The position numbers and the translations under genes are program-made. From a virus, in the IMG/VR virus record IMGVR_UViG_3300033149_005458, positions 1 to 29,287 of that record: a stretch of DNA of 29,287 nucleotides; one strand, 5' to 3'. This document shows positions 1,507 through 18,132 of the stretch, piece by piece. How positions within the stretch are numbered: position 1 is the stretch's first letter; every line of letters starts with the position of its first letter. The notes beneath the pieces are model-generated. The model saw nothing but the letters and a program-made list of their open reading frames with translations. It did no database searches and was not told the DNA's origin.

Positions 1507-2298
1507 TTAGTTCTTAATCCAGTCTTTGGCGTAAGATGGAATTACGAAATCTTCTTCCAACTTCCCACCAGAGAATTCTGGTAATTTAATTTTTATTGTA
1601 TTGATAGTCCAATTATCCGTCCATTCTTCCTCAGATTCTTCAAACCATTCCATACACTTGATTATCTCTTCTGGTTTTCTTTTGGCAAGGAACATACTTT
1701 TAATTGCCTGCATTATTGGATCAAACTCTGGTCCGTGCAATTCTACTCCTTTCAGCTCTTGGTATGCTTTTAAGACAGCATCATACCATTCCTTGGGAAA
1801 TGTCGTAGTTGTCCTTAAGGATTTTTTCTTTTTTTCGGTTGGTTTTTTAACCAACCTATTGTAATAGTTTCTTTTGTAATAGTTTCTTTTGTGTGTCCGC
1901 TGGGCTTTACTATTACTAGTCCGCTGGAATTTACCATTACTAGTCCGCTGGGCTTTACTAGTTAAGCGTGGGCGACTAGTCCATTTTTCGTAATTTTTTT
2001 GGAATCCATACCTGTTAATTCGTTTTTTCTTTTTATTTAATAGTCCGCTAGACTTAACTAGTAAAGCCTGCTTAACTAGTTCTTTAATAGCAAAACAGAC
2101 TGTTGGTCTTGATAAATTTGTACCTTCTTCAATTTGAGTCAAAGATATGTTGTCTTCTTTTTTGTGCCAACCATAAGTTTTGCGCAGAATAAACATTAAA
2201 ACTTGCCACTGACTGCTTGTCAGGTTTAATTTTGCCAATTTTTCAATTATTTCATTGGCGATTGCGGTGTAACCATTTTCTTTTTGTGGATTAGCCAT
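1507..2298 (-). CDS. Phage replication initiator, lambda O-like
   Basis: A 263-residue protein whose first about 100 residues match the phage replication protein O N-terminal family: GYTAIANEIIEKL, then SSQWQVLMFILRKTYGWHKK, then a winged-helix DNA-binding part with the recognition helix near residues 58-75 (NLSRPTVCFAIKEL). In lambda this domain binds iterons located in the O gene itself. Here residues 109-145 are low-complexity and repetitive (SKAQRTSN-type octads, KRNYY twice), because the DNA beneath is a repeat array. The C-terminal part (about 165-263) is a separate domain with EWYDAVLKAYQ and KCMEWFEESEEEW, possibly recruiting the host or phage helicase. No ribosome binding site precedes the ATG, only an AT-rich stretch, so translation may be leaderless or weak. 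A DnaD-like initiator is an alternative. Confidence 0.8.
   Translation of the reverse strand: MANPQKENGYTAIANEIIEKLAKLNLTSSQWQVLMFILRKTYGWHKKEDNISLTQIEEGTNLSRPTVCFAIKELVKQALLVKSSGLLNKKKKRINRYGFQKNYEKWTSRPRLTSKAQRTSNGKFQRTSNSKAQRTHKRNYYKRNYYNRLVKKPTEKKKKSLRTTTTFPKEWYDAVLKAYQELKGVELHGPEFDPIMQAIKSMFLAKRKPEEIIKCMEWFEESEEEWTDNWTINTIKIKLPEFSGGKLEEDFVIPSYAKDWIKN
1861..2080. other. Probable replication origin: iterons inside the initiator gene
   Basis: A dense repeat cluster inside the replication initiator gene. Two perfect 15-bp tandem copies (GTAATAGTTTCTTTT) lie at 1861-1875 and 1876-1890. Three tandem 24-bp copies beginning GTCCGCTGG start at 1895, 1919 and 1943, and a diverged fourth (GTCCGCTAGACTTAAC) starts at 2043. 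The palindrome ACTAGT occurs six times, at 1915, 1939, 1957, 1975, 2057 and 2075, with spacings of 24, 18, 18, 82 and 18. A very AT-rich stretch at 1983-2040 separates the repeat groups and could be the melting element. Lambdoid phages keep their origin in the same place, within the O gene. Origin function is inferred. Confidence 0.7.
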
Positions 2299-3018: not shown

Positions 3019-3280
3019 GTGGTATGAAGAAGAATTTAGCAGAAAAAGACTGCATAGGCCTGCTTGGCCGGCAGACAGGCCTGCCTCGTCGGCAGATAGG
3101 TTTATGATTACGAGTAGAGTTTTCTATTCTTCAGGAATTTATGATTGGGAAAAAGAAAGAAAAAGGTCTTTAGCTCTCAGACACTTAAAAGGGCAGCATC
3201 AAGCCAGAAAAGAAGGACTTAAAAAGTTATCCACAGATGATATAATTGATTTTAGTGAGAAATTAGAGAAATTATTATGA
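3005..3280 (+). CDS. Hypothetical protein carrying an in-frame palindromic repeat insertion
   Basis: A 91-residue basic protein of no family I recognise. It begins MRNFRWYEEEFSRKRLH. Residues about 18-32 (RPAWPADRPASSADR) are encoded by two overlapping 24-bp palindromic units at 3056-3100. The remainder (VFYSSGIYDWEKERKRSL, LKGQHQARKEGLKKLSTDDI) is a charged helical protein. The inserted stretch spans 45 bases, a multiple of three, so the frame survives. The gene overlaps the HNH gene at its start and the next small ORF at its end (ATGA). Its place between the HNH and terminase genes suggests a packaging-related role, without direct evidence. Confidence 0.6.
   Translation: MRNFRWYEEEFSRKRLHRPAWPADRPASSADRFMITSRVFYSSGIYDWEKERKRSLALRHLKGQHQARKEGLKKLSTDDIIDFSEKLEKLL
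3056..3100. repeat. Palindromic repeat, two overlapping units (copy 1)
   Basis: Two 24-base units, 3056-3079 and 3077-3100, share the pattern AGGCCTGC-(5 bases)-CGGCAGA-Y-AGG and form CCTGC/GGCAG hairpins. They stand out as G+C-rich in an AT-rich gene. Related units occur at 15836-15858 and 16985-17028. The repeat lies inside a reading frame without breaking it, as Rickettsia palindromic elements do. Confidence 0.7.
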
Positions 3281-3761: not shown

Positions 3762-4986
3762 GATTTATAGATCCCCTGCAAGATTTAAGATTATTAGAGC
3801 AGGTAGAAGATTTGGTAAGACATTTTTTTGCGTTGCGGTTCTAATTGAAAAGGCAGGCAGGGGAAAAGGGAGAAGAGAATACTGGTTTGTGGCACCTTTT
3901 TACAAGCAAGCCAAAGAAATAGCTTGGCAGATGCTTTTGGATATGATGCCCAAAAACTGGACATTGAAAAAAAATGAAGTTGATCTGTCTATTGTTCTGC
4001 GTAATGGGTCCACCATTAAATTAAAGGGAGCGGACAATCCAGAATCACTGAGAGGAGTAGGAGTGGCGGGAGCCATTCTTGATGAATATGCTTTTATGCG
4101 TCCTTATGTGTGGGAAGAAGTTATCCGTCCTATGCTTTTTGACTCGGGCGGCTGGTGCATTTTTATTTCAACTCCGAAGGGATACAATCATTTCTACGAT
4201 CTGTGGAAAGAAGCTCTTGGACAGAACGACTGGGCAAGATTTCATTACACCAGTTATGATAATCCATATCTTTTAAGAGAAGAATTAGATAAATCCAAGG
4301 CAGAAATGAGTGAAGAGAGATTTGAGCAAGAAGTGATGGCTGAATTTACGCGGAAGAGCGGTGCGGTTTGGCCAATGTTCAGAAGAAAAATTCATGTCAA
4401 AAAGAGAAGAGAACCAAAAGCAGATGCAATTATTGTGGGATCAATAGATTTTGGCTTTGCGGTCGGACATCCGACTTCAGTTCTCTGGCACGAGATAGAT
4501 GGAGAATATATTTATACATTTGATGGTTTTTTGGAGGAGGGTCGAACCATTGAAGAGATTGATGAAAGAATGAAAGGACAAGTGCAGGGACTTGTGGTGC
4601 GGGGAATTTATCCTGATCCCTCCAGACCAGATTTAATAAAAGCATTGACAGACAGAGGATGGAATTGTCTTGAAACACAGACGGATGTTGAACTGGGAAT
4701 TACTAAGGTGGCGGAATATATGAGCGTCAATCCGCTTACAAAAAAACCGCGTTGGACTATTTCAGAACACTTAGAGGATGAAATAAGACAGATAGAGGAA
4801 TACGAGTGGATGGAAGTAAGAGGGAGAGACGGCAAATTTAGGCAGTTTCCTAAAAAAGAAAATGATGATTGTCCGGATGCACTTAGATACTTTATTTTTT
4901 CCTACCTTAAACCAAAGAAAGAAGAAGCATATTATCATGAAGAATACCAAAGACAAAAAGCGAACAAATACACAGGATATGCCTAA
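3721..4986 (+). CDS. terL: Terminase large subunit
   Basis: A 421-residue packaging motor with both domains. The ATPase domain has Walker A RAGRRFGKTF (26-35), Walker B AILDE (118-122) and coupling motif ISTPKG (149-154). The RNase H-like nuclease domain has acidic residues at SIDFGF (Asp243), YPDPSRPD (Asp299) and DDCPDALRY (Asp386). Length and motif order are normal for the family. It translocates DNA into the prohead through the portal and cuts concatemers. No clear ribosome binding site precedes the ATG; the 41-base overlap with the small subunit gene suggests translational coupling. Its last eight bases overlap the first gene of the sugar cassette. Confidence 0.95.
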   Translation: MKRKKIELHPKQSEIYRSPARFKIIRAGRRFGKTFFCVAVLIEKAGRGKGRREYWFVAPFYKQAKEIAWQMLLDMMPKNWTLKKNEVDLSIVLRNGSTIKLKGADNPESLRGVGVAGAILDEYAFMRPYVWEEVIRPMLFDSGGWCIFISTPKGYNHFYDLWKEALGQNDWARFHYTSYDNPYLLREELDKSKAEMSEERFEQEVMAEFTRKSGAVWPMFRRKIHVKKRREPKADAIIVGSIDFGFAVGHPTSVLWHEIDGEYIYTFDGFLEEGRTIEEIDERMKGQVQGLVVRGIYPDPSRPDLIKALTDRGWNCLETQTDVELGITKVAEYMSVNPLTKKPRWTISEHLEDEIRQIEEYEWMEVRGRDGKFRQFPKKENDDCPDALRYFIFSYLKPKKEEAYYHEEYQRQKANKYTGYA

Positions 4987-5782
4987 ATATCTAATTACAG
5001 GTGCCGGAGGCACTTTGGGCAGAGAATTTGTCAGGCAGCTGATGGACAGGGCAGAAGTCACCGCACTTGACAATAATGAATGGGCACTGGCTGAAATGAA
5101 AGAATGGGAGGGAAAAGTAAAATTGGTTCTTAGGGATTTCGTAAATGCCGAAATTAAGAATCATATTATTATCCATTGTGCCGCTTACAAGCATGTTGAT
5201 TTATGTGAGCAAAACAAAGATGCCTGCACGGAAAATAATGTAGAAAAAACCAAAGTAATTCATTCAAGAGCAATGTGGCAGAAAAAAGATTTTATTTTTA
5301 TCTCTTCGGATAAAGCAGTAGAGCCGGAAGGACACTACGCTGAAACAAAAAAAGTAATGGAAGATATAATCATAGCGAGCGAATACGGCAAGATAATCAG
5401 GTTGGGTAATATTTATGGTTCTTCGGGTTCTGTTATCCCTGTTTGGGAAAAACAAATCAAAGAGGGTAAACCGCTTACTATCACTGATTTGAGAATGAAG
5501 CGGTTTTTTATTGATGTGCGGGATGCGGTAGCCAAAATACTTCAGCTAATCCCTGAAATGAAAAATGGACAGATAGGAATTCCTGAAATGGGTAAAGCTA
5601 TTACTCTTGAAGATTTACGCAATAAAGTTTTAAGTATGCACGGGCTGAACAAGAATTACTTATGCCATATCATAGGCAAAAGAGAGGGTGAAAAAATGGA
5701 AGAGAAACTGGTAGGCAAAGATGAAAAAGAAGTGTTAAGCATTAAAGGAATCGGAAAAGTTTATGAAAAAACAAACACATAA
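4979..5782 (+). CDS. NAD-dependent sugar-nucleotide dehydratase/epimerase, CapD/PseB-like
   Basis: A 267-residue extended SDR enzyme. It has a Rossmann motif GAGGTLG (8-14), the CapD/PseB signature HCAAYKH (66-72), SSDKA (109-113), and catalytic YAETK (Tyr120, Lys124), followed by FFIDVRDAV. In this family these belong to UDP-GlcNAc 4,6-dehydratases and C4/C5 epimerases, the first step towards deoxy-amino sugars. It is shorter than typical PseB enzymes (about 330), with a reduced C-terminal substrate region, so the substrate is uncertain. The start at 4979 gives a protein that begins directly with the Rossmann strand (MPKYLITGAGG) and overlaps the terminase stop (ATGCCTAA). An upstream in-frame ATG at 4937 would add a basic tail and is less likely. 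Confidence 0.82.
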   Translation: MPKYLITGAGGTLGREFVRQLMDRAEVTALDNNEWALAEMKEWEGKVKLVLRDFVNAEIKNHIIIHCAAYKHVDLCEQNKDACTENNVEKTKVIHSRAMWQKKDFIFISSDKAVEPEGHYAETKKVMEDIIIASEYGKIIRLGNIYGSSGSVIPVWEKQIKEGKPLTITDLRMKRFFIDVRDAVAKILQLIPEMKNGQIGIPEMGKAITLEDLRNKVLSMHGLNKNYLCHIIGKREGEKMEEKLVGKDEKEVLSIKGIGKVYEKTNT

Positions 5783-6002
5783 AGGCAGGCGTTCTTGCAG
5801 ATATTTGCGGATTGAACTTATTGCTCCTTGGGATAAAGATTATTTAAAAGCCAGAGGAATTAAACAGATAGATTCTTACTTTCCTACGATTGAGATACCG
5901 CATAGATGTCCCCAACTTCGGAAGGACGGCAGTTGTAAGTTAGGAAATAAGAAACCAAAAATTTGTAAAAGGAGACATTATGAAAATTTTAATTACCGGT
6001 GA
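5763..6002 (+). CDS. Small cysteine-containing protein
   Basis: A 79-residue basic protein overlapping both neighbours in other frames (20 bases at its start, 23 at its end). It carries a conserved-looking cysteine pattern, HRCPQLRKDGSCKLGNKKPKIC, spaced like part of the metal site of YkgJ-type proteins (C..L...G.C.L...KP..C). That may bind zinc or an iron-sulfur cluster, though only three Cys are in this block and a fourth (Cys12, RRSCRYL) is far upstream. Its place between two sugar-nucleotide enzymes suggests an accessory part in that pathway. The function is not known and the YkgJ likeness is weak. Confidence 0.55.
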   Translation: MKKQTHKGRRSCRYLRIELIAPWDKDYLKARGIKQIDSYFPTIEIPHRCPQLRKDGSCKLGNKKPKICKRRHYENFNYR

Positions 6003-7842
6003 TTGCGGTTTTATTGGAACTCACACCAAAAGAGCACTAAAGAAAAAAGGGTATGAAGTAATAGGGTATGATATTAAAAGAGATCCGCGAGAAGACATCT
6101 GTAATTCTGAACATTTGTCTTATTTTATTGAGAAAGGGGATAAGATACTTCATTTAGCGGCTGTGTCTCGGTTTAGAGATGCCGATAATAATCCAGCTGA
6201 GGCATGGAGAACTAATGTAGGCGGCACTGCTTCAGTTCTGGAAACAGCCACCAAAAAGAAAGCAGAACGGATAGTGTATTCATCAACAGGTTCGGCACTT
6301 ATGCCTATCTGGACTAATCCCATCACAGAACACAATACAGACCTTGAAGGTAATTCGCATTATGGTATGACTAAGGCGGCGGCAGAAAAATTGTTCAGAC
6401 TTTCACAATACAAAGTTCCTTATGTGATTTTGAGATATGGACACATATACGGCAAAGGAAAAATAGGACACGGAGCTGTTAATATTTTCATTGAGAGAAT
6501 GGAAAGAGGACTGAAACCGGTAATATATGGCGGAAAACAATCCAACGAGTTCTGTCTGTCTGGAAAGACTAAAATTTTAATGAGTGATTTTAGTTGGAAG
6601 AATATTAAAGATATTAAAATTGGAGAGAAAGTAATATCTTTTGATGAACAACCAATTAATAAAAAAAGAAAGTTTAAAATTTCAAAAGTAGTAGCTAATT
6701 CAAAAAGAAAAGATATTTTATATGAGATAAAAACAACAGATGGGACGATAAAGGCGACAAGAAAACATCCATTTTTGACGGAAAAGAACAGATATTCAAA
6801 GGTAGAGAATTTGGTTGATAAAAGTAAGTTAAGAAAATTTAGTCAGCCAGTAGATTTTAAAGAAAACAATAAATATAGACAAGGTTATATCGCAGGAGTA
6901 TTTGATGGAGATGGAAGTATAGGGGTTTATCAATATAAAAACAAGCCAAAAAATTATAGGGCGACCTTATTTGTTACTGATAAAGATTTTTCAGACTATT
7001 TTACTAAATGTTTAAAATGTTTTGACCTAAAACCCATTAGGGCTGAGAGACAACCAAATTATCCCAATGCTAAAAGAGAATATGGAGTATTGATATGTAA
7101 AAAGTCTGATTATGAAAAAGTCTCAGCTATTATTAGAAATAAGGACTTTGGAAATGAAGATTTTTGTAAGGGTTGGTTAGCTGGTATATATGATTCTGAG
7201 GGTGAGTCAATGGCAAATAAAATACATCTGATTGTAGCTTCTAATAATAATGATAAAATAATAAAAAGAATAGAAAGTATATTAGAAAAATTTAATTTTA
7301 AATTCTCAACTCATATCAAAAAAGATGGTTGTAAACTTGTGCAAATGTTGGGTGGATTAAACGAGCATATTAGATTTTTTAGTTTATTCAGACCTTCCAT
7401 TAAAAGGAAATATCCAGATATAAAAAAGAGAGAAGTTAAAGGCAAAAAGGCGAATATTATTTCTATAAAGGAAATTGGAATTGATAATGTTTATAACTTA
7501 GAAATTGAGAATACTCACACTTTTATTGCTAATGGTTTTTTAACTCATAACTGTTATATCAAGGATATTGTTCAGGCAAACATTAAAGCACTTGAAACTG
7601 AAAATACCAATGAAGTATACAATATAGGGTATGGTAAGGATTATACTATTCAAGAAGTTTATAATATCATCAACAAAATTTTAGATAAAAATATTAAACC
7701 AGAATACGGGCCAGCCAGAGTGGTTGATGCTCCTTTTTTCGCCTATGATATTTCAAGAGCAAGGAGAATGTTGGGATACAGACCAAAATGGGATTTAAAG
7801 GCAGGTATCAAAGATATGATAAAAGAAATGGGGATTAAATGA
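5980..7842 (+). CDS. NAD-dependent sugar epimerase interrupted by an intein
   Basis: A 620-residue precursor. The exteins (1-191 and 525-620, together 287 residues) make a full extended SDR of the UDP-glucose/GDP-mannose epimerase-dehydratase type. They show Rossmann GDCGFIG (7-13), catalytic YGMTK (Tyr128, Lys132), RYGHIYG, and the C-terminal VYNIGYGKDYTIQEV and MLGYRPKWDL blocks. The intein is inserted in the family's conserved RDFvyVdDv-like motif: NEF before and CYIKDIV after. Splicing would restore SNEFCYIKDIVQAN. A likely job is the second sugar-nucleotide step after the CapD-like enzyme. AGGAG at 5970-5974 supports the start. The stop overlaps the next ATG (ATGA). Substrate is not assignable. 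Confidence 0.9.
   Translation: MKILITGDCGFIGTHTKRALKKKGYEVIGYDIKRDPREDICNSEHLSYFIEKGDKILHLAAVSRFRDADNNPAEAWRTNVGGTASVLETATKKKAERIVYSSTGSALMPIWTNPITEHNTDLEGNSHYGMTKAAAEKLFRLSQYKVPYVILRYGHIYGKGKIGHGAVNIFIERMERGLKPVIYGGKQSNEFCLSGKTKILMSDFSWKNIKDIKIGEKVISFDEQPINKKRKFKISKVVANSKRKDILYEIKTTDGTIKATRKHPFLTEKNRYSKVENLVDKSKLRKFSQPVDFKENNKYRQGYIAGVFDGDGSIGVYQYKNKPKNYRATLFVTDKDFSDYFTKCLKCFDLKPIRAERQPNYPNAKREYGVLICKKSDYEKVSAIIRNKDFGNEDFCKGWLAGIYDSEGESMANKIHLIVASNNNDKIIKRIESILEKFNFKFSTHIKKDGCKLVQMLGGLNEHIRFFSLFRPSIKRKYPDIKKREVKGKKANIISIKEIGIDNVYNLEIENTHTFIANGFLTHNCYIKDIVQANIKALETENTNEVYNIGYGKDYTIQEVYNIINKILDKNIKPEYGPARVVDAPFFAYDISRARRMLGYRPKWDLKAGIKDMIKEMGIK
6553..7551 (+). mobile_element. Intein with LAGLIDADG homing endonuclease
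   Basis: A 333-residue in-frame intein. Block A starts with Cys1 (CLSGKTKIL). Block B is TRKHPF with His72. Dodecapeptide motifs GYIAGVFDGDGSI (111-123, acidic Asp120) and GWLAGIYDSEG (208-218, acidic Glu216) mark a LAGLIDADG endonuclease. Blocks F/G are VYNLEIENTHTFIANG and LTHN, with His332 and Asn333, followed by Cys as the +1 residue. Every residue needed for class 1 splicing and both endonuclease acids are present, so it looks active. The DNA is visibly more AT-rich than the flanking extein DNA, suggesting a separate origin. Confidence 0.95.
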
Positions 7843-8633
7843 AAAAAATCTTAATTTTAGGTGCCGGCGGTCCAGCGGGAGTATTGCTTACAAGATGTCT
7901 GAAGGATTTTGATGTTTATGGGACAGATGATGGAGTATGGGCTTCAAAGATGATAGAAGCAAAGACAGACAATGTAATACCTGATTTAATTTTTCCTCTG
8001 CCTGATAATTTAATTGTGGCTTATGCCACTTGTCCACAATGCTTTTTGCCTGACCAGAAAGAGATAGAATTATGTCAAGATAAACCGAAACTTGTTAAGG
8101 TTTTGCGGGAACTTGCACCTAAAACTATTTGGGAAAGAGAGACAAAAGGTGCAGGCGGTAAAGGTTCAAGGATGGGTTCAGAATACCTACCCGGCAGGAA
8201 TATATCTTGTGAAATGATATTTAAGAATGGCAAATTAGAAGCATACTTTCAAAAACACAGACTTTCTTATCTTGTTAAAAAGGTAGAACCAAGAGTATTT
8301 AGGGGAATTGGAAGTTCAGCAGTCGCAAAGTGTATTGATGACCGCGAAATATTGGATGTTTCTTTAAAGGCTGTGAGCAGAATCTCCAGAAAACCGCAAG
8401 GGATTTATGCTGTTGATCTTAGAGAGGATGAATATGGAAATCCTAAAATTACTGAAATCAATGCGGGACGATTTCTGACAGCTTCTTATGTTTTTTACTA
8501 CAAGGCATACAATTTGCCTAAACTATTTGTGGAGCTTGCTCTGGGGTTAAAGAAGAGCAAATTAGGAGAATACCCAGAAGGCAAAGGTATAATTAGGCAG
8601 ATAGATCAAGAACCATATTTTGGAGAATTATGA
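7839..8633 (+). CDS. ATP-grasp family ligase
   Basis: A 264-residue protein with a Rossmann-like N-terminal domain (MKKILILGAGGPAGVLL) followed by ATP-grasp features. GAGGKGSRMG (104-113) is the flexible nucleotide-binding loop. YAVDLREDEYGNPKITEINAGRF (about 190-212) carries the metal and ATP ligands Asp193, Glu206 and Asn208. The ending resembles CarB/PylC-type enzymes, which join a carboxylate to an amine by an acyl-phosphate. It is compact for the family (300-400 typical). Its ATG overlaps the epimerase stop, and its stop overlaps the next ATG. In this cassette it might acylate or aminoacylate an amino sugar, or make a precursor. The substrate is unknown. Confidence 0.8.
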   Translation: MKKILILGAGGPAGVLLTRCLKDFDVYGTDDGVWASKMIEAKTDNVIPDLIFPLPDNLIVAYATCPQCFLPDQKEIELCQDKPKLVKVLRELAPKTIWERETKGAGGKGSRMGSEYLPGRNISCEMIFKNGKLEAYFQKHRLSYLVKKVEPRVFRGIGSSAVAKCIDDREILDVSLKAVSRISRKPQGIYAVDLREDEYGNPKITEINAGRFLTASYVFYYKAYNLPKLFVELALGLKKSKLGEYPEGKGIIRQIDQEPYFGEL

Positions 8634-8905
8634 GAATTTGCATAGACCTTGATGATACAATTATGGATTATGAGAGCGGGGAGATGATTGCAGGTGCAGA
8701 CAAAGCGATTAGGGATTTGAAAAAGAAAGGGCACAAAATAATTGTATTTACTGCTAACTGGCTTACTCACAAAGGAATAATTAAAGGTTGGTTAAAATCC
8801 CATAATATCCCTTATGACGATATAGTAATGGGTAAGCCAATATTTGATATTTTGATCGACGATAGGGCTCGGCAATTTAAGGGTTGGGATAAGAAGTATT
8901 TATGA
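8630..8905 (+). CDS. Minimal HAD-superfamily phosphatase
   Basis: A 91-residue protein with the four HAD motifs and no cap domain. Motif I is DLDDT (nucleophile Asp6, general acid Asp8), motif II is VFTAN (Thr41), the lysine is in MGKP (Lys69), and motif III is IDDRA (Asp77, Asp78). This minimal form is known in capsule and sugar-biosynthesis clusters and in phages. It could remove a phosphate from a sugar-phosphate intermediate in the cassette. The start and stop both overlap neighbouring genes in ATGA arrangements (ATGA at 8630, ATGA at 8902), so it is part of one coupled operon. Confidence 0.82.
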   Translation: MRICIDLDDTIMDYESGEMIAGADKAIRDLKKKGHKIIVFTANWLTHKGIIKGWLKSHNIPYDDIVMGKPIFDILIDDRARQFKGWDKKYL

Positions 8906-9834
8906 AAATACCATTCAGTAAACCCACACTCGGACGAGAAGAAGAGAAAGCAGTTATCAAGGTTCTGCGTTCTAACTGGCTGGCGGCTGGGTCAAAAACA
9001 GAAGAATTTGAAAAGAAGTTTGCTGATTATGTGGGGGTGAAGTATGCGATATTTACCAACTCTTGCACAAGTGCTTTGAAGATGGCTTTTAAGTATCTTA
9101 AAGAAGAGGAGTATTATAAAAGTTATATCTGCCCTGAAAATACTTTTTGCGCTACTTATGCTGCCGCAGAGGAGATAGGATTAAAAAGAATGTCTGGTGG
9201 ATATAGATCAGTGATAGTAGCAGTTCATTATGGCGGGATATTAGATCCAGTTTATTCTGAAACTTGCGACATTGAGGACTCCGCCCATCGCATAGAAAAA
9301 AATGACCCTTTAATGGGCAAAATAAGATGCTACAGCTTTTATGCCACTAAAAATATGACTTCAATCCAAGGCGGTATGTTGGTAACAGATGAAAGAAAAA
9401 TATACAACAAGTGCAGATTATATTGGCGAGATGGACTATCAAGCTCAACCGCAGATAGATTAAAAGGTAAATCTTGGAAGTATGAAGTAAAAGCAATGGC
9501 AGGCGGATATGACTGCAATGATGTTTGTGCCGCAGTCGGACTTGAACAGCTTAAAAAGCTCCCAGAATTTACTAAAAGGCGGAATGAGATAAGAGATAAA
9601 TACAATAAGGCGTTTGACACTGACTGGAAGGGTAATCATTTGTATATTTATTTTGTTAAAGAAGTAGATAAATTCATAGAATATATGGCTAAAAATGGTA
9701 TTCAGTGCGGCTATCATTATCCAGGGACAGGTTGGAAGGGAGTAAGTTTGCCCATATATCCTCTTTTGAAAGATAAAGAAGTGAGATATATAATAAATAA
9801 AATTTTAGAATGGAGGAAAAATGAGAACGATTAA
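8902..9834 (+). CDS. DegT/DnrJ/EryC1-type sugar aminotransferase
   Basis: A 310-residue PLP-dependent enzyme. It starts with the family opening IPFSKPTLGREEEKAV and has FTNSCTSALKMA for cofactor phosphate binding. IEDSAH holds the aspartate facing the PLP ring (Asp126), and YSFYATKNMTSIQGGML gives the Schiff-base lysine at Lys150. YDCNDVCAAVGLEQLKKL is the typical later block. The family adds an amino group to keto-sugar nucleotides, the natural step after a 4,6-dehydratase. It is shorter than usual (about 370), mostly between the PLP-binding blocks. It follows the HAD gene by overlap and precedes a small gene with a strong ribosome binding site. Confidence 0.9.
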   Translation: MKIPFSKPTLGREEEKAVIKVLRSNWLAAGSKTEEFEKKFADYVGVKYAIFTNSCTSALKMAFKYLKEEEYYKSYICPENTFCATYAAAEEIGLKRMSGGYRSVIVAVHYGGILDPVYSETCDIEDSAHRIEKNDPLMGKIRCYSFYATKNMTSIQGGMLVTDERKIYNKCRLYWRDGLSSSTADRLKGKSWKYEVKAMAGGYDCNDVCAAVGLEQLKKLPEFTKRRNEIRDKYNKAFDTDWKGNHLYIYFVKEVDKFIEYMAKNGIQCGYHYPGTGWKGVSLPIYPLLKDKEVRYIINKILEWRKNEND

Positions 9835-10147
9835 ATCTTTTGAGGAAATTAAAAACATTCTCAGAAAATTCAAAAGAGCCAACGGTGTGGGTTATGTAAT
9901 CACTCCGCAACTTTTACTAATTGGTGAAAAGATTGGTCTTTTTGGATACAGCGAAGCTCTTGCTAAATGGAGAGAAGGAAGTGTTTTCACAGAAAAGGTG
10001 TGTGAAAAAGATGAAAGGATTGGCATACCATCTGGGCTTTTTATCAGTTGGAATGGTCCCTCTCTTATCAGGAATGGAGAGAGAATTTTTTTGGGAATTG
10101 AAAAAGCAATAGAAGAGATCGAAGAAGCATTGAAAGGATTTTCTTAA
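9821..10147 (+). CDS. Hypothetical protein in the sugar cassette
   Basis: A 108-residue protein starting MRTIKSFEEIKNILRKF, with GGAGG (about 9811-9815) just before the ATG. It overlaps the aminotransferase stop by 14 bases, and its own TAA overlaps the next ATG as TAATG. The central part (NGVGYVITPQLLLIGEKIGLFGYSEAL) looks like a beta-rich fold and the end (EKAIEEIEEALKGF) is an amphipathic helix. I do not recognise the family. Coupling on both sides suggests it works with the sugar enzymes. Confidence 0.65.
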   Translation: MRTIKSFEEIKNILRKFKRANGVGYVITPQLLLIGEKIGLFGYSEALAKWREGSVFTEKVCEKDERIGIPSGLFISWNGPSLIRNGERIFLGIEKAIEEIEEALKGFS

Positions 10148-11805
10148 TGAAAAAACAAACTTTTAGTATAATTATGCCTGTCTATAAGGACGCCTATAAG
10201 ACCATAGGGCGAGCAGTTTATTCTTTGCAAGACCAAGATTTTGAGAATTGGGAACTTGCCATTGTTTTTGACGGCGAAAATAAAAAAGGCATAAAAGCAC
10301 TTAAAAAGGGATTTAATTTAGAAACTCACGGCAAGAAATATACTATTAAGCCGTTAAAAGATAAAAGAATTAAGTATTATGTTAAACCTTGGGGTGGAGC
10401 AGCTGATACCAGAAATTATGGAGTTAGAAAAACTTCGGGAGAATACATTGCTTTAATTGATCCTGATGTCTATCTTTATCCGGGGACTTTAAGAGAATGG
10501 TTCGGGGAGCTTGAAAACGATAAAGATATTGATTTTGTCTATGGACATTATGACATTGTCGGCGGTGAACAGATACTTGCAAGAGAATTTTCAAGAAAAG
10601 CACTTGAATCCACTAACTATATTTCAGGAGCATTTCCGATAAGAAGATCGGTGTGGGAGGACCAAAGAAAAGGACTTAAAGCATTGCAGGATTGGGATAT
10701 GTGGTTAACGCTTACAGATAAGGGGTGCAAAGGTAAATTTATTGATAAATCTTTTTTTATCACTGAACCGCCGGGAGAAATTTCTAAGTATTCTCATACC
10801 CATTGGAAAGAACTTACATCTAAAATTAGGAAATGGCATAACATTCCTAAATCGGATTTAGTAGTCTGTTCTCTTGGTGCAGAGTGGCATGCCATCAATA
10901 CCGCAGAGATTTTAGGGAGTGATGTCTTGCCAATCGTCTCACTTAAACCTCATAATTACAGAACAATTTATTTGTTGGGATTCTATCCTTCTGCCGTCAA
11001 GGCACACATAGGAATGTTTATGAATGACTTTAGAAGTTTTATGGCAGGCGGTTCAGTTGATGGAAAACCCATCAAAAGAGCAGATGCTACGAAGATAATT
11101 CATTGGATAGGAACTGATATTTTTCAAATGAAAACAATAGTTTCTTTTGATTCTTTACAGGGACTGAAGAGATTGTTTGAGGATTTTGGTATAATACATT
11201 TGACAGAAGCAAAGCATACGCAAGCCGAAATGAAGGAATTGGGAATAAAAACAAAAGTTGTGCCACTGCCTCCGAATAAATTATTCAGGTGGAAACAATT
11301 TAAACAGCCGAAAAAATTTGTAGTTGCCAATTATATCAATCCTACACAATCAGAGATGTACAAAGAAGAATTTATGAAAGATGTGGCTGACCATATGCCT
11401 GATGTAGAATTTATGTTTTTTGGGGATAAAAATAAAGTTTATAAAGAAAATAATTGCAATTATGTGGGATGGAAACCTATTGAGTGGATTATTAAAAACT
11501 CCTCTATACTTACAAGAATGGTTGTCCACGACGGACTACCCCACTCTCCTTTGCAGTTTTTAACTGCCGGCAGACGGGTAATATCAAATGTTAAAATAAA
11601 GTATTTTGATTATTGTCCTGTGGACAGAAAGGCAGTTATAGAAAAAATACGCAAACTTAAAAAGAATCCAATCGCACCCAAAAAAGCCAGTGATTTTTGG
11701 CGTAAAGAATTAGACCATAAGAAATTTAAGAAAAGAATAGAGAATTTAGTAAAGGAACCCTATGCCAAAAGAAAAAGAAACACCAAAAAAAAGACCAGAA
11801 GTTAA
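10147..11805 (+). CDS. Two-domain glycosyltransferase (GT2-like plus GT-B-like)
   Basis: A 552-residue fusion. Residues 1-230 are a GT-A family 2 domain: FSIIMPVYKDAYKTI, then the metal-binding LIDPDVYL (Asp105, Asp107), then ALQDWDMWLTLTD near the acceptor side. Residues about 237-530 look like a GT-B glycosyltransferase: VVCSLGAEWHAINTAEILG, EKHTQ-like helical spacers, then VPLPPNKLFRW, FFGDKNKVY, SPLQFLTAGRRVISNV. The C-terminus is strongly basic (KRKRNTKKKTR). Such fusions can add two sugars in succession or build a glycan from a nucleotide sugar made by the neighbouring genes. The acceptor is unknown. It overlaps the next small gene at its 3' end. Confidence 0.82.
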   Translation: MKKQTFSIIMPVYKDAYKTIGRAVYSLQDQDFENWELAIVFDGENKKGIKALKKGFNLETHGKKYTIKPLKDKRIKYYVKPWGGAADTRNYGVRKTSGEYIALIDPDVYLYPGTLREWFGELENDKDIDFVYGHYDIVGGEQILAREFSRKALESTNYISGAFPIRRSVWEDQRKGLKALQDWDMWLTLTDKGCKGKFIDKSFFITEPPGEISKYSHTHWKELTSKIRKWHNIPKSDLVVCSLGAEWHAINTAEILGSDVLPIVSLKPHNYRTIYLLGFYPSAVKAHIGMFMNDFRSFMAGGSVDGKPIKRADATKIIHWIGTDIFQMKTIVSFDSLQGLKRLFEDFGIIHLTEAKHTQAEMKELGIKTKVVPLPPNKLFRWKQFKQPKKFVVANYINPTQSEMYKEEFMKDVADHMPDVEFMFFGDKNKVYKENNCNYVGWKPIEWIIKNSSILTRMVVHDGLPHSPLQFLTAGRRVISNVKIKYFDYCPVDRKAVIEKIRKLKKNPIAPKKASDFWRKELDHKKFKKRIENLVKEPYAKRKRNTKKKTRS

Positions 11806-11914
11806 ATGGGGAAAATGCGAGAATTGTGGATATAAGGGGCCTGTTGGTAAAAATGGTTGTCCAAAATGCAATGCGGATTATTGGTGGCATGAATTGTGGC
11901 ATGAAAAAAAATAA
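11762..11914 (+). CDS. Small zinc-ribbon protein
   Basis: A 50-residue ORF from ATG 11762 to TAA 11912-11914, lying in the overlap region between two glycosyltransferase genes. It has two CxxC pairs, KCENCGY and GCPKC, a zinc-ribbon arrangement, then an aromatic-His stretch (DYWWHELWHEKK). The N-terminal part is basic (MPKEKETPKKRPEV). The well-formed zinc ribbon makes it likely to be real. It may be a small nucleic-acid-binding or protein-contact factor. It overlaps the upstream gene by 44 bases and the downstream gene by 14. Confidence 0.7.
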   Translation: MPKEKETPKKRPEVKWGKCENCGYKGPVGKNGCPKCNADYWWHELWHEKK

Positions 11915-12683
11915 ACCTTTTTTCAGTATTGTTACGCCAACTTTCAACAGAGCAGATTACCTCTCTCAGCTAATAGAGGGAGTTTTGAGTCAGACTTACA
12001 AAAACTGGGAGCATATTATTGTTAATGACGGAGGGACTGACTCCTCTCCCGACCTTATACATTGGTATCAAAAAAAGAATAAAAACATTAGATATTTTGA
12101 GAGAAAAAAAAATATGGGGATTGGCTTTACCAGAAATGAAGGAAATTCTTATGCAAAGGGAAAATGGATTGTGGTAGCTGACTCTGATGATATTTGGCTG
12201 CCTAACCGACTGGAAATTCTTTATAGATATATAAATTTAGATGATAAAAAAATTAAACTATTGTTTCCAACCCCGCATTTAGGACTGCTTAAGAATTTTT
12301 GCAATCCTTGGGAAAAAGTAGATTTAATCTATGGCGGCATGCTTTGGATGGGCAGGGAAGGTAGAGCAGTCCGCCAATACTGGAAACCAACATCTCTTAC
12401 CGCTGAAAAATTAAGAAAAGGCAATCAAGTGATAATACATGGTGCCTGTGCTTACAGAAAATGGGTGGCTGATAAAATAGGTTACAGAAATGAACAGAGA
12501 AAAAATGATGATTTTTGGTTTGTGGTTGACTGCTGGAACAGCAAAGTAAAGTTTGGTTTTGTCAATCAACCTTTAATGGGATACAGAATACTGGAAGATG
12601 GAGTTTCCAGAGTTAATTATCAGTCAATCAGGCGGGAAATGAAAAGAAAACTTAAATATGAAAAAATCAAAGACAGAATATAG
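11901..12683 (+). CDS. Glycosyltransferase family 2
   Basis: A 260-residue GT-A enzyme. ATG 11901 gives the typical start FFSIVTPTFNRADYL; an in-frame start at 11826 adds a run with no GT likeness. Family features include SQTYKNWEHIIVNDGGTD (nucleotide contact), GFTRNEGNSYAKGKWIVVADSDDIW with the metal-binding DSDD at 94-97, and RKNDDFWFVVDCW near the acceptor end. Length is normal for a single GT2 domain. It lacks any membrane segment, so it would act on a soluble or nearby acceptor in the cytoplasm. Its 3' end overlaps the next gene by 26 bases. Confidence 0.88.
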   Translation: MKKNKPFFSIVTPTFNRADYLSQLIEGVLSQTYKNWEHIIVNDGGTDSSPDLIHWYQKKNKNIRYFERKKNMGIGFTRNEGNSYAKGKWIVVADSDDIWLPNRLEILYRYINLDDKKIKLLFPTPHLGLLKNFCNPWEKVDLIYGGMLWMGREGRAVRQYWKPTSLTAEKLRKGNQVIIHGACAYRKWVADKIGYRNEQRKNDDFWFVVDCWNSKVKFGFVNQPLMGYRILEDGVSRVNYQSIRREMKRKLKYEKIKDRI

Positions 12684-16924: not shown

Positions 16925-16984
16925 ATCTTAAATAATAAAAATTTAAGTGGCTATGGGGCAAGCCTGAGTGGAAACCCTGACTGC

Positions 16985-17028
16985 CCTGACTGCCGTTAGG
17001 CAGGCCTGACTGCCGTCAGACAGGTCAG
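16985..17028. repeat. Palindromic repeat, tandem units (copy 3)
   Basis: Two adjoining related units lie between the capsid and glycosyltransferase genes. One is 16985-17004, with CTGCC and GGCAG around GTTA. The other is 17005-17028, with CTGAC and GTCAG around TGCC, followed by ACAGGTCAG. A partial unit (CTGACTGCCC) precedes them at about 16977-16986. A run of A follows rather than T, so no rho-independent terminator is implied, but the hairpins could protect the capsid transcript's 3' end. Confidence 0.65.
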
Positions 17029-17058
17029 AAAGTGAGTCCACAGCCCCACACAAACCAC

Positions 17059-18132
17059 ATGGAAAGAAAATTACGCATATTCACACCAATCATAGAAGAT
17101 TCTGGTGTGGGCTTTTATCGAATAGCCCAGCCAACTAAAAATTTTGCTGAAAAGGAAAAGGCTTATGTTATGAGTTCGCCTTTCACAGGACAAATGCAAA
17201 TTAAAGATATTGATGGCGGACTCTTAGAGCAAGGTGCAAAATGGGCAGATATAATTTTTATGAATACTGCCAAAGACGCAAGGATGTTGGTTACAATAAT
17301 GGCACTTAGAGATTGGCAGAGAAAAAAACTTGTGATTGATGTTGATGATAATTTGATAAATTTAGATCCTGATCATCCTTCTTACAAAGCATATACCGAT
17401 CCGCAAAAAAATCCGTCATTGTTTGCCCAAAAATCTCTTATGTATGCAGATATGGTGGTTGTTTCGACAGAATACTTAAAAGGTTTTTACGGAGATCTTA
17501 ATAAAAATATATATGTTAATCCCAACTCAATAGACTTCAAAATCTGGAAACATAAGAAAAAAAAGCATAAAAAACTCCGTATTGGTTGGGCTGGAGCTGC
17601 GGGACATAAAGAAAATTTAGAAATGGTAGCAAAACCTCTGCAGAAAATCAAAAAGAAATACAAAAATGTAGATATTGTAACATTTGGTGAAATTCCCAGA
17701 GGTTTCAAATCGGATTGGCATAAAAAATGGGTTCCTTTTGCCAAATATTCCAAAACATATGCAAATCTCGGTTTTGACATTATAATTGCTCCGCTTAGGG
17801 ACAGCAGATATAACAGAGCTAAATCTAACCTTAGATTGATTGAAGCAGGAGCTCTTAAAATACCGGCCGTGGCATCACCAGTAGAACCATACAAGAACTT
17901 CCCTTGTTTGTATGCCAAGGAAGAAGAAGATTGGTTTAACCAGTTAGAGAAATTGATTAAAGACAGAACATTGAGAAATAAGATAGGCAGAATGGCTTAT
18001 CAAGAAGTCAAAGAAAAATATGAAATAAATAAAAATTCGGAGGCACTATTAAAGAAATTTCAACAACTAACAAAGAGGAAATGGATAGACAGGAGACCTC
18101 TGATACCACGATATTCCGAAGTGCGGCAATAG
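17059..18132 (+). CDS. GT-B-type glycosyltransferase downstream of the capsid gene
   Basis: A 357-residue GT-B (GT4-like) enzyme. Its N-terminal domain has KLRIFTPIIEDSGVGFYR and KKLVIDVDDNLINLDPDHPSY. The C-terminal domain has LRIGWAGAAGHKENLEMVAKPL, VTFGEIPRGF, and the nucleotide-sugar-binding end YNRAKSNLRLIEAGALKIPAVAS. ATG 17059 (MERKLRIFTP) is chosen over GTG 17032, whose extension (MSPQPHTNH) looks non-coding; neither has a clear ribosome binding site. Unlike the other glycosyltransferases it lies inside the head and tail genes. Its neighbours suggest it acts late, and the capsid or tail could be the acceptor (inference). Confidence 0.85.
   Translation: MERKLRIFTPIIEDSGVGFYRIAQPTKNFAEKEKAYVMSSPFTGQMQIKDIDGGLLEQGAKWADIIFMNTAKDARMLVTIMALRDWQRKKLVIDVDDNLINLDPDHPSYKAYTDPQKNPSLFAQKSLMYADMVVVSTEYLKGFYGDLNKNIYVNPNSIDFKIWKHKKKKHKKLRIGWAGAAGHKENLEMVAKPLQKIKKKYKNVDIVTFGEIPRGFKSDWHKKWVPFAKYSKTYANLGFDIIIAPLRDSRYNRAKSNLRLIEAGALKIPAVASPVEPYKNFPCLYAKEEEDWFNQLEKLIKDRTLRNKIGRMAYQEVKEKYEINKNSEALLKKFQQLTKRKWIDRRPLIPRYSEVRQ

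Follow-up and report, generated by a model that had tools for sequence, protein, structure and literature searches.

The DNA analysed here (the window), a linear IMG/VR virus record 29,287 bases long, represents an incomplete fragment. An ORF on its minus strand (1507-2298) encodes a Rep_O-type replication initiator of 263 amino acids, which matched the Pfam family PF04492 (Phage_rep_O) with an E-value of 2.4e-22 (79.7 bits, cut-off 28.7) and PHROG 277, annotated as 'replication initiation O-like', with an E-value of 1e-24. The placement of a set of repeats and ACTAGT hexamers within an O-like gene, as proposed in an initial annotation made from the sequence alone, is thus confirmed. Other matches of the initiator were to MarR_2, weakly, in Pfam and to the DnaD-type PHROG 16826 (E 3e-17). 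The AlphaFold2 model of the protein comprised a winged helix at residues about 15-99, modelled confidently (pLDDT about 88-98), a linker at about 107-165 predicted to be disordered, and C-terminal helices at 169-225. The nearest PDB structures to the modelled winged helix were MarR-type regulators, some of them DNA-bound, and DnaD, including its N-terminal structure, while a search of the PDB by the initiator sequence gave a single chance match, BlaR1 (E 0.23). Downstream of the initiator gene in this linear fragment, the ORF at 1242-1505 matched no Pfam or PHROG family and no known helicase loader.

Just upstream of the initiator gene, four CCGATAG heptamers were detected on both strands at 2340-2441, in a region that looks like an operator. 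An inverted repeat of 82% (2314-2347 with 2383-2416) was also found there, and promoter-like sites near the heptamers point both ways (2450-2478 on the minus strand and 2489-2516 on the plus strand). Elsewhere in the window, a nucleotide-sugar and glycosyltransferase block lies between the terminase and portal genes (4937-12683), encoding Polysacc_synt_2, a DegT aminotransferase and family 2 glycosyltransferases, and an NAD-dependent epimerase (5980-7842) is split by an intein that carries a homing endonuclease domain of the LAGLIDADG type. Another glycosyltransferase follows the capsid gene (17032-18132). Short tandem repeats of 20-21 bp, rich in G+C, were identified at 3056-3100 and 16975-17024 in the otherwise A+T-rich fragment.

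Repeated sites and an A+T-rich element within the initiator gene

ACTAGT occurs six times within 166 bp, at 1915, 1939, 1957, 1975, 2057 and 2075, and these copies, all inside the initiator gene, are the only ones in the window. From shuffled sequences 4.7 copies would be expected in the whole 29 kb and about 0.03 per 166 bp. When the codons were redrawn from phage usage with the protein kept fixed, the mean was 0.44 ACTAGT and six were reached in 0 of 5000 trials; permutation of the gene's own codons gave a mean of 1.1 and never reached six.

The sites fall into two groups. The linker cluster (1915-1980, minus strand) has four ACTAGT at spacings of 24, 18 and 18 bp, read as Thr-Ser (TS), and lies within tandem 24-bp repeats, of which three copies were found at 1895-1966 and a diverged fourth at 2043-2066, as the initial annotation had described. 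The inner pair of predicted initiator sites (2057-2080, minus strand), two ACTAGT 18 bp apart, lies in winged-helix codons, is read as xLV and is arranged as the inverted repeat ACTAGTTAAGC-AG-GCTTTACTAGT. Such an 18-bp pair was also present in the winged-helix codons of three other Rep_O genes (L086, L025 and L366). By direct reading of the sequence, a degenerate site, AATAGT, was located at 2039-2044, 18 bp from the next ACTAGT. The relatives with ACTAGT had spacings of 18, 22 and 24 bp in common, and in nine of the 11 ACTAGT genes displayed, the window's included, at least one copy precedes the conserved Trp codon.

The 15-bp tandem repeats described initially were likewise found, at 1859-1892. 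All periods had been thought to keep the reading frame; this is true of the 15-, 18- and 24-bp spacings but breaks down between the site groups, as a 49-nt block is present twice in the gene, 100 bp apart, and the frame of the sites at 2057 and 2075 is not that of the other four. Since one motif is thus read in two frames, as xLV in the winged helix and as TS in the linker, the DNA is what is conserved. Inverted and out-of-frame repeats in this gene numbered 17, against 3.7 expected. The idea that the repeats keep frame and shape a repetitive linker was half right: neither the sites nor the A+T-rich element described below is confined to one reading frame, and the repetitive linker peptide looks like a by-product.

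The proposed DNA unwinding element, 5'-ACACAAAAGAAACTATTACAAAAGAAA (1868-1894, minus strand), contains the 15-bp repeats and directly adjoins the linker sites on their C-terminal side. It was identical to the A+T-rich element of the lambda origin, ACACAAAAGACACTATTACAAAAGAAA, at 26 of 27 bases. A search of the window with the lambda 27-mer, at up to three mismatches, returned this single place, and none was returned in 100 shuffles. The distance from the conserved Trp codon to the element is 86 nt in the window and 88 nt in lambda. The initial annotation had pointed instead to an A+T-rich tract separating the site groups; by composition such a gap exists (1981-2038), but it is not the tract that matches lambda. 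We rejected it as the unwinding element because the lambda 27-mer matches 1868-1894 only; it encodes the wing and the conserved K..W segment and is probably coding sequence.

In an alignment of eight O genes the core of the element was invariant, although it is read in three frames, as HKRNYYKRNYY in the window, TKDTITKE in lambda and IQKKLLQKK in L020; most of the genes that match it closely read it as TKETITKE. At least 21 of the 27 bases matched in 71 genes, against 32 from synonymous permutation alone, and the peptide therefore explains part of the conservation of the element but not the genes that read it in other frames. Of 227 genes, 122 had the sequence ACAAAAGA within 100 codons after the Trp codon and one had it before that codon. 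When IMG/VR was scanned for the exact 25-mer ACAAAAGAAACWATTACAAAAGAAA, it lay inside a Rep_O gene at 80 of 80 loci among the matches listed, 77 times in an ORF that matches the Rep_O profile and three times in a truncated ORF judged by eye to be of the Rep_O kind; these loci are redundant, many being near-identical, and among the matches listed only 14 non-redundant proteins were absent from the 240-gene set described below. Close matches elsewhere were seen in an O gene in an Omnitrophica genome (L050, 24/27) and in one from the phylum of a Phycisphaerae genome (L493, 26/27). As near-identical elements occur in distant O genes, the sequence is likely a functional motif, beyond mere A+T-richness. 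In the open-access literature we found no report of the element outside lambdoid phages.

We assembled 240 representative Rep_O genes (<75% identity) from viral contigs, genomes and phage records, and counted identical 9-mer pairs, inverted or in different frames, against 100 synonymous shuffles per gene. All 100 shuffles were exceeded in 148 of the 240 genes, compared with 9 of 240 ORFs taken as controls from these loci; lambda, in which iterons are annotated, also tested positive. Over all Rep_O genes 5207 pairs were observed and 886 expected, and inverted copies contributed 955 pairs against 401 under the synonymous expectation. Of the 148 positive genes, about 140 had repeat members in the linker and 90 had them in the wing.

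Residue 66 and the sequence of the sites

Each Rep_O gene carries its own sites, and therefore protein and sites can be compared, and a recognition code might be read from sequence alone. For 222 genes, we took the repeated 6-mers of the linker DNA after the Trp codon and, for each column of the N-terminal domain, compared residue sharing with motif sharing, overall identity having been removed. Up to Trp, the column that ranked first was residue 66, with a partial r of 0.146, the next column reaching 0.063; columns 109-113, which ranked high too, are the linker itself. In the window this residue is Thr66 (codon 2101-2103, minus strand), which comes third in the predicted recognition helix (64-76).

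Among genes repeating GGTAAC, 21 of 26 had His at this position. Asn66 accompanied GATAAC in 11 of 17 genes, Gln66 accompanied AATTAG in 11 of 14, and ACTAGT occurred with Thr66 or Ala66 in 11 of 12. His and Asn set against GG and GA gave a table of 20, 1, 0 and 11. In the H, N and L groups the half-sites often form inverted repeats of the form rc-N6-half, an arrangement that suits a dimer; ACTAGT is itself a palindrome, and the T/A group, to which the window belongs, departs from this spacing. In three lambdoid proteins with His66 (L543, L586 and L584) the motifs repeated in the linker are TCCCGAA or GCTAAT-type ones instead of GGTAAC, and the relation therefore depends on context or on the rest of the helix. 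When a second recognition column was sought conditional on residue 66, columns 25, 65, 20 and 46 emerged, weakly and unstably.

The genes compared are related, and the correlation could reflect shared ancestry instead of direct contact, an explanation that bears on the family-wide code only and that we consider unlikely. It would fit the independent-pairs sign tests on supported branches, which went in the same direction but were not significant, being underpowered with few pairs. It would also fit the second set of loci, found via the unwinding element, which was too small for validation (14 non-redundant, 12 aligned and one informative, N with GATAAC). As independent pairs were too few, motifs were simulated along a tree built without the helix, and there the associations gave p values of 1e-4 (H), 5e-4 (N), 3e-3 (T/A) and 2e-3 (Q), with 0.02 for T66 with CTAGTA. 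Shared ancestry also does not readily account for residue 66 keeping the top rank as the identity limit was lowered from 60% to 30%, above all columns up to Trp even in pairs below 30% identity. It ranked first in 287 of 300 half-samples, its value exceeded the largest of any column in 300 permutations, and the linker DNA used, which begins after the Trp codon, is over 100 nt away from codon 66.

The covariation suggests that residue 66 helps to choose the DNA letters bound by Rep_O. We think it probable that this residue sets the central half-site bases (GGTAAC with H, GATAAC with N, ACTAGT or AGTAA with T/A, and AATTAG with Q) while the lambda-like element stays constant, in more than one frame, across phages of several bacterial phyla. 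The code is correlative and apparently new, as no report of a residue-to-iteron code was found in the open-access literature.

The locus as a probable replication origin

Taken by its sequence, the locus can confidently be placed in kind among lambda-type origins, and we hold it very probable that the segment is a lambda-type theta replication origin overlapping its own initiator gene. This upholds the initial reading of a lambda-style origin inside the initiator gene as the best one, given a Rep_O protein, sites selected as DNA and a lambda element with one mismatch. By analogy with lambda, from which we infer binding, wrapping, opening and helicase loading, Rep_O would bind the six ACTAGT-centred sites through its winged helix, probably as dimers, two of the sites lying within the codons of the winged helix and four within those of the linker. 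The bound protein array would then wrap the DNA and strain the flanking A+T-rich 15-bp repeats at 1868-1894, which would open and admit the replicative helicase. GC skew, proposed initially as a check, was computed over the fragment and dropped as origin evidence: it tracks gene orientation with no origin-specific turn, and on an incomplete linear fragment it speaks neither for nor against an origin.

The MarR-like fold, and the fact that transcription can be blocked by intragenic sites, would suit an autoregulatory operator only, at which the winged-helix protein represses its own gene while replication starts elsewhere. We regard this as very unlikely, since it leaves unexplained both the lambda-like unwinding element beside the sites and, among the matches listed, the restriction of that element to Rep_O genes, and since a separate candidate operator array lies upstream; autoregulation could nevertheless coexist with origin function. 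Also very unlikely is that the repeats are a protein feature, a tandemly duplicated linker kept for its amino acids with the DNA motif as by-product, for although the tandem copies of 24 and 15 bp keep the reading frame and the A-rich tract is read TKETITKE in most relatives, the linker is predicted to be disordered, one DNA is read in different frames within the gene and between genes (window, lambda and L020), and inverted copies exceed the synonymous expectation.

With the origin reading, the lambda arrangement, together with nearly the same unwinding sequence, would extend to a distantly related environmental phage, and for many uncultured phages that have a Rep_O gene the origin could be located from sequence. 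The Rep_O family, in which each gene has its own target sites, would offer a natural experiment on how winged-helix DNA specificity changes. What appears worth following is the recognition code across the family, together with the unwinding element kept in several frames; both are correlative.

Comparison with known origins

Lambdoid phages have long been known to carry origins inside their O genes, and structural homologies between such origins were reportedly described by Grosschedl and Hobom in 1979.

The DnaD-type initiators of Gram-positive bacteria and phages share a winged-helix N-terminal domain with the window's protein, as reflected in its PHROG 16826 match and PDB neighbour, but Rep_O is its best family and no DnaD C-terminal domain was found in it by Pfam. 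Iteron plasmid origins of the P1, RK2, R6K and pSC101 type also have arrays of initiator sites adjoining an A+T-rich unwinding element. However, their iterons are mostly direct repeats bound by monomers and are accompanied by DnaA sites (PMC5043065). We rejected a plasmid-type origin for the window because its initiator is a Phage_rep_O protein (MarR_2 weakly) with the sites inside its gene, and not a plasmid-type Rep with outside sites.

Closer to the window are the lambdoid Stx phages 933W and P27, which have six sites in the O gene and an A+T-rich region; the binding of Stx phage O proteins to six lambda-like iterons has been shown (PMC7466680). Unlike in the window, the iterons and O of these phages are nearly identical to those of lambda, and the additional iterons make for a longer linker and lie outside the winged helix.

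In the lambda origin, which lies within O, inverted-repeat iterons are bound by O dimers, and after them comes a 40-bp A+T-rich region, which opens when the DNA is negatively supercoiled (PMC5043065). The window differs from lambda in having sites with an ACTAGT core rather than the TCCCTCAAAACGAGGGA type, and six of them at 18 or 24 bp rather than four annotated iterons. It further differs in that two sites lie in the winged-helix codons, the unwinding element is in another frame and no P gene is recognisable downstream in the fragment. Like the lambda origin, it combines a PF04492 initiator and sites placed in the gene between the winged helix and the C-terminal part with an A+T-rich element, nearly identical in the two, on the C-terminal side.
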